From contig NZ_MKVA01000005.1 in NCBI RefSeq assembly GCF_001899075.1, forward strand, positions 1,054,001 to 1,118,000: a stretch of 64,000 bases of DNA, given 5' to 3'. Source of the DNA: Devosia sp. 67-54. Lineage in GTDB: Bacteria; Pseudomonadota; Alphaproteobacteria; Rhizobiales; Devosiaceae. A program made the position numbers and the translations under genes. This document shows, in pieces, positions 57,334 to 59,419 of this stretch. The stretch's first letter is position 1. Every line of letters begins with the position of its first letter. The notes under the pieces were generated by a model. That model was not told where the DNA came from. It ran no database searches and saw only the letters and a program-made list of their open reading frames with translations.

Positions 57334-57816
57334 TCAGCCGGCGGCGGTCAACTGCCGGGCGATGGTATCGAGCACGGCGTGCACCATGCCGGGCGCGTCG
57401 TCCTCGTAGAACGCCTTGGCAATATCGACATATTCGGTGATCACCACGCCCGGCGGGATGTCGCGGCGGCGCAGCAGTTCGAACGCGGCCGCCCTCAGGA
57501 TGGCGCGCAACGTCGCATCGATACGGCCGACCGGCCAGTCATGACTCAAGGCCTTGTCGATGGTCGGGTCGATGTCGAGCTGGCTCTTGATGACGCCGCC
57601 GACGATCTGGCGGAAGAAGTCGGCGTCGGCGGGCAGATATTGCTCGCCCTCGACCTCGCGGCCGAGCATGTGCGCCGAGAACTGGCTGAGCGTGTCCTCG
57701 AGCGTCTGCCGGCCCACATCCATCTGGTACAGCGCCTGCACCGCGGCAAGCCGCGCCGCCCCGCGCTGGTTGGCGGGCCGCACGGGCGAGCCGGTCGTGA
57801 GAGGCATGGAGGTCAT
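57334..57816 (-). CDS. nusB: transcription antitermination factor NusB
   Basis: A 160-residue all-helical protein: 'RGAARLAAVQALYQMDVGRQ', 'SHDWPVGRIDATLRAILRAA' and 'VVITEYVDIAKAFYEDDAPG' (the conserved EY.DIAK.F). Binds boxA RNA with S10 in rRNA antitermination. ATG 57816 follows, by five bases, the TGA of a duplicated ribD 3' end, showing that nusB was originally directly downstream of ribD or a relative. Confidence 0.94.
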   Translation of the reverse strand: MTSMPLTTGSPVRPANQRGAARLAAVQALYQMDVGRQTLEDTLSQFSAHMLGREVEGEQYLPADADFFRQIVGGVIKSQLDIDPTIDKALSHDWPVGRIDATLRAILRAAAFELLRRRDIPPGVVITEYVDIAKAFYEDDAPGMVHAVLDTIARQLTAAG

Positions 57817-57825
57817 GGAATTCAA

Positions 57826-57910
57826 CGGCGCTCGAGAGTGCGCACCTTATCTTCGCCCAGCGCGCGGCGGTCAACCTGCGAAAATCGCGCTGCGGCAATG
57901 CGGTCGGCGA
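57826..57910 (-). pseudogene. duplicated 3' end of ribD (85 bp, left copy)
   Basis: These 85 bases equal 58332-58416, the last 28 codons of ribD, with one mismatch (57850). In this copy the frame still ends '...[10 protein letters not shown]' with its own TGA just before nusB. It is evidently the original ribD end, cut off when the two-gene cassette entered. Confidence 0.85.
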
Positions 57911-57915
57911 GACGA

Positions 57916-57943
57916 TTGCCGATCACCCGTCGGCTGCTAGAAT
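57916..57943 (+). promoter_or_regulatory. likely promoter of the two-gene cassette
   Basis: TTGCCG (57916-57921), 16-base spacer, TAGAAT (57938-57943) begin just inside the insert, 26 bases before the first ATG. The cassette thus seems to carry its own promoter, pointing against ribD-nusB transcription. Confidence 0.5.
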
Positions 57944-57968
57944 GTGGATGCTGCATCGGGGGAGCAGA

Positions 57969-58205
57969 ATGTCGACGGAAGCAGACAAGGAGCGACTCAA
58001 GCTCACGGCCAACCTGCTCAACGCCTTGGCCTCCGGCACCATTCTCAGCGCGCTGATCGCACCCTATGTGGCGATAGGCTTGGGAAATTTACCGGCGAAC
58101 GCTTCGCCCGTAAACCTGCTCGGGCTGAGCACGTTTGGCCTGGCTCTCGGCGTTGTGCTACATTTGGTGGCGCGTCGACAGTTCAATGGACTGGATCGCC
58201 TATGA
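57969..58205 (+). CDS. unknown 78-residue membrane protein in the ribD-nusB cassette
   Basis: Begins 'MSTEADKERLKLTANLLNAL' and has two hydrophobic spans ('ASGTILSALIAPYVAIGLGN' and 'LLGLSTFGLALGVVLHLVAR'), with a basic end (RRQFNGLDRL). GGGGGAGC precedes the ATG. The GC content is lower than the neighbours. The stop overlaps the next ATG (ATGA). Both genes lie between the two 85-bp repeats. No family recognised. Confidence 0.72.
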   Translation: MSTEADKERLKLTANLLNALASGTILSALIAPYVAIGLGNLPANASPVNLLGLSTFGLALGVVLHLVARRQFNGLDRL

Positions 58206-58327
58206 CGACACTGATCCTCTGGCTTTGGGCGCCCTTCGTGGTGGGCGTGGTGATCGCCGTGGCGAGCTATCTCTCCTGGCGAGACAGGCGTCGCGACGGC
58301 GGCCGGCATCGCAGCGCAGCGGAATAG
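58202..58327 (+). CDS. unknown 41-residue single-span membrane protein in the ribD-nusB cassette
   Basis: Begins 'MTTLILWLWAPFVVGVVIAV', one membrane span, then a strongly basic tail (SWRDRRRDGGRHRSAAE). It overlaps the 78-residue gene by four bases, and its TAG abuts the ribD stop on the other strand (58327/58328). The pair resembles a small two-component membrane complex, but no family is known to me. Confidence 0.65.
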   Translation: MTTLILWLWAPFVVGVVIAVASYLSWRDRRRDGGRHRSAAE

Positions 58328-59419
58328 CTAGCGGCGCTCGAGAGTGCGCACCTTGTCTTCGCCCAGCGCGCGGCGGTCAACCTGCGAAAATCGCGCTGCG
58401 GCAATGCGGTCGGCGAAGCTGCCGAGCAGCGCCGCGGGCACGCCGGAACGGCCCAGCTCGACCGGCGTGTCGATGATGTGCAGGCGATCGACCAGCTCGC
58501 CGGCGATGAAGGATTCCGCCAGCCTGGCGCCGGCTTCGACGAACAGGCGGTTGATGCCGCGATCGCCCAGGATCGACAGGACCTGCCGCAGGTCCGGGCG
58601 GCCGTGGCGGCCTTCGACCGCTATCACCTCGACGCCGGGACGCAGGGTCAGCGGCCGCTCCGGCGTGGTGAAGACGACAATGGGAATGCCCGAGACGGCT
58701 GCGAACAACTCGCGCCGCAGATCGATGTCCCGCGCGCCGGCGAGGATGACGCGAAGCGCGCCCCTGCCCTCGAGGCCATCGAGGTGGATGCGCAGGTCAT
58801 TGTCCTCGATCTCGGCCCGGGCGGCGCCCGAAAGGATCGCGTCGGCGGCGGCGCGTTCGCGCTCGATGAAGCGCAGCGCCTCGGCGCCGAGCAGGGTGTC
58901 GCTGCCGGGCGCGGCATAGCCGACCATGCCGTCGGCGCTCAGCGACAGCTTGAGGGTGACGAAGGGCCGGCCCTTGGTGATGCGCGTCGTGTAGCCCTCG
59001 TTCAGCAGCCGCGACGGGGCATGATCGAGATGCACGGCCTCAATGCCCGCTTCGGCGAGCGCGGCGAGCCCCTGCCCCGCGCGCTGCGGATCGGGATCGA
59101 GCATGCCGGCGACGACACGGCCGATGCCGAATTCGAGGATGGCGTCGGTGATGGGCGCATGGCTGGTGTAGTGCGCCGCCGGCTCGAGCGTGACGTAGAG
59201 CGTGCGGCCCTCCGTCATGCCTCTCGCCTCGGACAGCGCCAGCAGCTCCGCCGGGTCCGAGCCGCGGGGCGGCGTCGCGGCGCGGCCGAACAGCAATTGC
59301 CGGCCGGGATCGACGACCAGCGCGCCGACGGTGGGCGCCGCGCCGGTCGAACCGAGCGCACTGCTCGCGAGGCGCGCGGCGGCATCGAGCCAGCGCCGGT
59401 CGGACGCGCCGTCGGTCAA
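58328..59419 (-). CDS. ribD: RibD-like protein with degenerate deaminase domain and RibD_C reductase domain
   Basis: A 363-residue protein with the domain order of RibD (deaminase, then reductase of riboflavin synthesis). All three zinc ligands of the deaminase are replaced. The HAE motif is 'SDPAELLAL' (P56 for His), and the two cysteines of LEPC...C are A81 and I90 in '[18 protein letters not shown]'. The reductase part is recognisable ('[18 protein letters not shown]', '[20 protein letters not shown]') with some unusual residues. The deaminase is probably dead. Overlaps nrdR by four bases. The last 28 codons occur again at 57826-57910. Confidence 0.85.
58332..58416. repeat. 85-bp direct repeat, right copy (functional ribD 3' end)
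   Basis: 84 of 85 bases equal 57826-57910, in the same orientation, 506 bases apart. Together they bracket the two-gene cassette (57911-58331). Confidence 0.9.

Follow-up and report, generated by a model that had tools for sequence, protein, structure and literature searches.

Results

Organization of the ribD locus

The window examined in this study is a stretch of 64,000 nucleotides from Devosia sp. 67-54, in which the 3′ end of ribD occurs twice beside nusB. Positions 57826-57910 and 58332-58416 form direct repeats that are identical at 84/85 bases and spaced 506 bp apart. The 421-bp insert between them carries two small genes, hereafter gene 1 and gene 2, which run opposite to the ribD strand and overlap each other by 4 bp (ATGA). 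The features are as follows.

57334..57816, minus strand: nusB, whose ATG follows the ancestral ribD stop at a distance of 5 bases (Pfam, NCBIfam)
57826..57910, no strand assigned: left direct repeat, a leftover ribD 3′ end that still adjoins nusB (84/85 identity; empty sites in three congeners)
57911..58331, plus strand: insert (cassette) of 421 bp, the interval between the repeats, missing at the same junction in L006, L007 and L008
57916..57943, plus strand: promoter-like site TTGCCG-16-TAGAAT upstream of gene 1 (9/12 consensus matches; shuffles average 0.1)
57969..58205, plus strand: gene 1, 78 aa, predicted two-helix membrane hairpin (motif NERxKLxA...P...LHxxARxxL; model)
58135..58164, plus strand: predicted internal promoter for gene 2, TTGGCC-18-TACATT, inside gene 1 (codon scan, strict-pattern test)
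58202..58327, plus strand: gene 2, 41 aa, predicted single membrane helix and cationic tail ending AAE (4-bp overlap with gene 1)
58328..59419, minus strand: ribD, intact, its stop codon now inside the insert (Pfam, NCBIfam)
58332..58416, no strand assigned: right direct repeat, the 3′ end of the working ribD

The left repeat, on reading, retains the ancestral ribD stop TGA 5 bases before the ATG of nusB. On the right, the replacement stop TAG (58328-58330) comes from the insert, and the C-terminal residues of RibD are unchanged. The insert has a GC content of 0.618 versus 0.671 for the window. Its repeat pair scored 165, the best of 1050 control intervals reaching 95 and the best of 698 cross-pairings 37. 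A preliminary description had claimed 85-bp repeats of the ribD end around a 421-bp insert, a left repeat keeping the ancestral stop, two overlapping small membrane-protein genes of 78 and 41 residues on the opposite strand, and a -35/-10 of the insert's own; sequence comparison and reading confirm the first three, and the last is present as a consensus match. It had further held that the insertion regenerated the ribD end and brought no integrase. Both points are borne out by the new stop with the same C-terminal residues, by the empty sites in congeners, and by an insert that consists of two small genes only.

Eighteen congeners were searched with the left repeat plus insert as the query, and the ribD-nusB junction was readable in three of them (G005, G004 and G018). 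All three have the empty site that the preliminary description proposed to look for: the ribD end occurs once and runs straight on into nusB, with no insert in between. Another congener (G007) has ribD and nusB separated, with a riboflavin-synthase-like gene (by eye) after ribD, and G010 gave a 32-bp match alone, neither ribD nor nusB being in its locus; the remaining 13/18 had no ribD-end match to this query. Over the 85 bp of the ribD end, the three readable congeners diverge by 10-13%, and at the single mismatch between the repeats the left copy shares its base with L006 and L008.

The 78-aa protein of the window found no match in the 18 congeners (single-sequence search, E <= 0.001), and a profile search placed family members in 4/18, at other sites. 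The closest aligned relative of the window gene 1 is L021 (57%), with others in its group at 46-58%, and these relatives occupy another locus; L021 and L029 match the Devosia records L111 and L110, respectively, with full-length identity, so that their genus, g15, is Devosia. Since the three readable congener junctions are empty, the single-sequence search found nothing in congeners and the closest relatives sit elsewhere, the cassette at ribD likely came by horizontal transfer. An assembly artefact is a negligible explanation of the repeat and insert: the insert encodes a member of a conserved family, the locus lies inside a 1.2-Mb contig, and repeat plus insert are shorter than the span of ordinary paired or long reads.

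Two small proteins of an apparently undescribed family

The predicted model of the gene 1 product has a mean pLDDT of 93, with helices at residues 4-38 and 47-77, and that of the gene 2 product is one helix with a pLDDT of 82 and 54-61 in the tail. We compared 177 distinct copies of the family, 161 of them with a gene 2, a small hydrophobic open reading frame directly after gene 1. Gene 2 was present in 90 of the first 94 copies; the 4-bp overlap is seen in 51 of these 90 gene pairs, and the gene 2 product ends in GE in 25/90 and in AE in 24/90. Median dN/dS, calculated over 56 pairs for gene 1 and 52 pairs for gene 2, is 0.20 and 0.27, respectively. Both genes are thus under purifying selection and behave as real proteins.

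Pfam, NCBIfam and PADLOC searches with 20 gene 1 members gave no family that matched more than two members. Taken one member at a time, the strongest matches were to DUF5337 (E 2.2e-4, 1/20), MscL (E 0.0036) and PDC-M35B (E 0.0054); PADLOC returned three families, one member each, with a best E of 0.0054. For gene 2, Pfam on 31 members gave no convincing family (best CcmH, E 1.4e-4, single member), and PHROGs, searched with the two window proteins only, gave no convincing match (best E 0.027). Hence, none of Pfam, NCBIfam, PADLOC and PHROGs provided a convincing match to a recognised toxin, antitoxin or defence family. A sequence search of the PDB gave two matches only (best E 0.5). Fold comparison with gene 1 gave 184 matches at E <= 10 and none at E <= 0.001, which is uninformative for a helical hairpin. 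Long open frames read for fusions of gene 1 to upstream genes yielded no sensible fusion by eye, and Rfam had no match at E <= 0.1 near the ribD locus.

SLATT proteins are helical hairpins with long ends outside the membrane. The gene 1 model resembles them in being a predicted hairpin of this kind; it differs from SLATT and other two-helix effectors in that no significant sequence or fold match was obtained and no nucleotide sensor is linked to it in the insert. The search for homologues proposed in the preliminary description found dispersed homologues by profile and no convincing named family. The two-protein family is apparently undescribed, no description having been found in the open-access literature, which is weak evidence. 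All the same, a considerable fraction of the sampled alphaproteobacterial genomes contain members.

Distribution and genomic contexts

Using profile A1, built from four members, we found matches in 37/136 genomes of the host family (E <= 0.01) and in 51/397 genomes sampled in the host order (E <= 0.001). The broader profile A4, at E <= 1e-5, matched 13/18 genomes of one further family and 51/248 genomes of family f42, with up to seven matches per genome, some of them fragments. With A4, the phylum sample gave 10/349, nine of them in the order of the window, counting its own genome, and the tenth in the same class. Within Alphaproteobacteria, the cassette family has a scattered, patchy and multi-copy distribution. 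Clustering the 177 copies by upstream neighbour alone, with a simple ORF caller, gave 120 contexts, one of them with no upstream gene. An accessory membrane unit, as the preliminary description had put it, is borne out to the extent that these copies form a dispersed two-gene family.

The upstream gene is co-directional with the cassette in 94 of the 119 scorable contexts (p = 1e-10), and the gap to it is <=10 bp in 28/94 and <=60 bp in 54/94. The copy in the window belongs to the minority that have no co-directional upstream gene, and it has its own promoter-like site. Neighbour names were assigned by eye, among the neighbours listed, except for ribD, nusB, nrdR and bamE, which were identified by Pfam. 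The genome of the window has a second family member (G000:C6:375298-375525; L070, 3001-3231), located after an aspartate-aminotransferase-like gene (by eye), a context common to copies in two congeners (L040 and L045). Six genomes of g15/Devosia (L033, L034, L036, L037, L038 and L105) have the pair between terminase-like and portal-like genes, a setting that looks by eye like a gene transfer agent cluster.

L150 and L174 belong to the same genome; over the module they have 72% of their DNA in common, and no similarity was detected between their flanks. As the two are alike in the module and not in the flanks, the relocating unit looks like the bare gene pair. An active high-copy transposon was rejected, because none of the 26 module pairs whose flanks are dissimilar has more than 80% of its DNA in common, which suggests that movement is rare or old. 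The protein of L034 matched eight plasmid records, five of them typed conjugative, and at 7/8 of these plasmid places the gene table of PLSDB, itself incomplete, has no listed feature. Plasmid records gave no match with the window protein, phage records none with two queries, and viral contigs none with A3. L254, on Novacetimonas hansenii plasmid p1 (4001-4225; typed conjugative), is a family member at a place with no listed feature; a BrnT-type toxin gene and a helix-turn-helix gene follow it at a distance of about 440 bp.

Flanking repeats and the mode of insertion

Clear flanking direct repeats (score >=40) were found in 6/175 copies compared with 6/1050 internal controls (p = 0.003) and 0/698 cross-controls. 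The count covers 175/177 copies, two being too near contig ends; earlier counts were made on 94 and then on 176 copies. Among the copies with high control scores, L072 and L174 have other internal repeats inside them. The six repeats range from about 36 to 128 bp and differ in length and target, and a clean empty site is available only for that of the window.

Window: 85 bp, ribD 3′ end
L004: 60 bp, within a repeat-rich stretch
L204: ~128 bp with gaps, 5′ end of an xseA-like gene (by eye)
L108: 41 bp, terminator
L068: 36 bp, last codons and stop of a gene
L176: 42 bp, weaker

At the L068 site, where five loci were read, L236 and L237 keep gene 2 with gene 1 mostly gone, L235 has both genes decayed and L234 has neither. 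Given the decayed modules in these relatives, the L068 repeat probably stems from an event later than the first arrival of the module.

These counts go against two expectations of the preliminary description. It had likened the ribD end to an att site, and the ~120 gene contexts of the 177 copies provide no constant site. It had also asked whether homologues always sit between duplicated gene ends, which is refuted by the 6/175. The family relatives that have the genes and lack a repeat lie elsewhere, none of them at the ribD site. We accordingly rejected an integrative element at an att site (there is no integrase in the two-gene insert, and no constant site), a fixed insertion site, and repeats as a constant part of the cassette. 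An integron integrase, likewise, is not encoded in the insert. An insertion sequence or MITE does not fit, the duplication being 85 bp and no inverted-repeat pair lying at the insert ends among the 25 listed of 49 inverted repeats found, the other 24 being shorter.

The weaker proposition, that a target duplication accompanied the arrival of the ribD copy, is upheld: the target is repeated on both sides of the insert, and relatives have the empty site. Insertion with long target duplication has been described for restriction-modification systems (Nobusato 2000 and Furuta 2010, as cited in PMC3874152). By analogy, the ribD insertion resembles these events rather than insertion at an att site, with the difference that the cargo there is a restriction-modification system and here two tiny membrane proteins. 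It seems to extend transposase-free insertion with long target duplication beyond restriction-modification systems. A further difference is that long target duplication marks 6/175 copies only in the cassette family; with repeats so rare, it may belong to the ribD insertion and not to the family. We envisage that a horizontally transferred cassette would have been integrated by a process duplicating a long, variable stretch of the target. The genome of the window has two Ku matches above the family cut-off (L256, G000:C8:355093-355620, and L257, G000:C6:82382-82924), so end-joining may be available to the host.

Alternatively, the repeat could go back to a prior tandem duplication of the ribD end, or to a circle of ribD end plus module integrated by one crossover. 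For transposed genes of Arabidopsis, which have flanking direct repeats, the study PMC2869330 favours tandem repeats and circles, the authors preferring circles from tandem duplications. Those repeats resemble ours in matching the empty target and in being mostly genic sequence, the moved genes there being eukaryotic, unlike the cassette. However, 84/85 identity, when the three congeners differ by 10-13%, would require that the donor came from almost the same strain and already had the module beside ribD, and the genomes searched contained no such donor. We consider this route unlikely.

A conserved promoter-like sequence inside gene 1

The family consensus near the end of gene 1 is a sigma70-like TTGGCT-N17-TACATT, about 41 nt before the gene 1 stop. 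Its elements in the window occupy 58135-58140 and 58159-58164, with a spacer of 18, and gene 2 starts at 58202. The sequence was overlooked in the first, sequence-only reading, and a stricter generic promoter scan does not list the window site. The strict pattern, 35-50 nt before the gene 1 stop, is present in 83/167 copies versus 4/664 stretches of the same size from other parts of gene 1 (p = 2e-61), so that about half of the copies lack the strict form. Under synonymous shuffling the mean score is 10.2 for the real genes versus 8.9 (p = 7e-23), and 84/167 copies beat their own shuffles at p < 0.05. Length filters left 167/177 copies for the strict test and 150 and 148 for the codon scan, and 154/177 could be anchored at codons. 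The second copy in the genome of the window (L070) has TTGGCT-17-TACATA in its gene 1.

Codon usage agrees with this picture. The first codon of the conserved Leu-His near the gene 1 end is CTA, TTA or ATA in 111/154 anchored copies, and CTA plus TTA make up 138/1759 leucine codons elsewhere in gene 1. Across 150 gene 1 sequences, third-base A/T excess peaks at the -35 element and its edge (column 94, z 15.1; column 96, z 7.4) and at the -10 leucine codon (column 102, z 16.4). The only other gene 1 column with an A/T excess above z = 5 is the overlap codon (column 116, z 8.9), which is forced by the ATGA overlap; column 36 deviates in the opposite direction (z -5.1), and no codon column of gene 2 goes beyond z 5. 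Furthermore, one gene 1 column alternates between tryptophan (87), cysteine (29) and glycine (12) with TTG kept nearby in the DNA, which would be expected under selection on the base sequence itself.

A conserved promoter-like sequence in gene 1, placed so that it could transcribe gene 2 alone, is therefore strongly supported at the level of sequence. It offers a compact case of a promoter sequence within a protein-coding region that is kept across divergent members.

Decay of copies

Decay was judged by eye after reading the copies in three frames. Eleven copies have a broken gene 1 followed by an intact gene 2 (L105, L106, L108, L127, L128, L151, L180, L190, L195, L198 and L209), and the reverse holds in two (L086 and L189), p = 0.12 against gene length. 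Left out of this count were L172 and L194 (ambiguous), L078 (both genes broken), L196 (at a contig end) and L220, L235, L236 and L237 (relatives of known sites). Five divergent copies, L096, L199, L202, L109 and L200, have an intact gene 1 with no recognisable gene 2, and counting them as gene 2 losses gives 11 versus 7 (p = 0.74). Decay asymmetry was thus rejected as proof of a toxin, being not significant and vanishing once these copies count. Three relatives of cassette carriers (L220, L236 and L237) retain the gene 2 open reading frame with gene 1 wholly or mostly gone. Nine relatives of the L108 site were read, among 72/75 genomes with a match; L220 has a gene-2-like open reading frame alone, and the others by eye have no module.

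Discussion

Our preferred interpretation, with a probability of about 0.4, is that the cassette encodes a membrane toxin-antitoxin-like pair, in which the gene 1 product may be the effector and the gene 2 product its restraining partner. The separate promoter sequence of gene 2, the patchiness and the multiplicity of copies suggest an effector with a protective partner. The helical hairpin of gene 1 would be a harmful membrane effector, transcribed in most copies from the gene in front, and the one-helix product of gene 2 would bind and restrain it, being made in excess from its own promoter inside gene 1. The mqsRA system, a reverse-order toxin-antitoxin operon, has one or more antitoxin promoters inside the preceding toxin gene (PMC6918082). 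It resembles the cassette in having two small genes with the promoter sequence of the second inside the first, which would allow an excess of the second product. It differs in that mqsRA encodes an endoribonuclease and a repressor protein and its promoters are measured, whereas the cassette encodes predicted membrane helices and its promoter is recognised by sequence. The cassette is a candidate membrane toxin-antitoxin pair that can be tested.

The main rival to this toxin-antitoxin-like interpretation is a helpful accessory function: a beneficial membrane module, for instance in stress, transport or as a helper of respiratory complexes, that is horizontally transferred, gained and lost. The gene 2 promoter would then reflect a wider or larger need for gene 2 than for gene 1. 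Purifying selection on both genes speaks for such a module, as does its position kept in related genomes, e.g., the aspartate-aminotransferase-like context of this genome and two congeners. The persistence of gene 2 without an intact gene 1 in L220, L236 and L237 is in line with it as well. In contrast, within-genus patchiness, several divergent copies per genome and broken copies are a poor fit to a shared housekeeping helper. We regard the accessory module as possible, and as a little less probable than the toxin-antitoxin-like pair.

Whether the toxin-antitoxin-like pair also serves its own spread is a more doubtful proposition. The cassette may be a transposase-free selfish unit of ~400 bp that settles behind genes, borrows their transcription for a membrane toxin and keeps the antidote promoter in the toxin codons. 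If true, it would represent a new kind of selfish cassette spreading in Alphaproteobacteria, sometimes with long target duplication.

A role in phage exclusion or abortive infection, in which the hairpin would damage the membrane upon infection and gene 2 would be the silencer, appears improbable. Two-helix membrane effectors are known in defence, SLATT_1 is matched very weakly by one gene 1 member out of 20 (E 0.24), and 5/8 plasmids with a match are typed conjugative. Yet the three PADLOC families each match 1/20 members, at the E-values given above, the neighbours among those listed are ordinary genes by eye, and a sensor domain is seen in neither protein.

Around L004, in an AT-rich contig, a terminator-plus-promoter-like sequence is repeated at 1371-1426, 1843-1898 and 2270-2338. 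These repeats surround two coiled-coil paralogues and one cassette, and the whole may be an array of small units.
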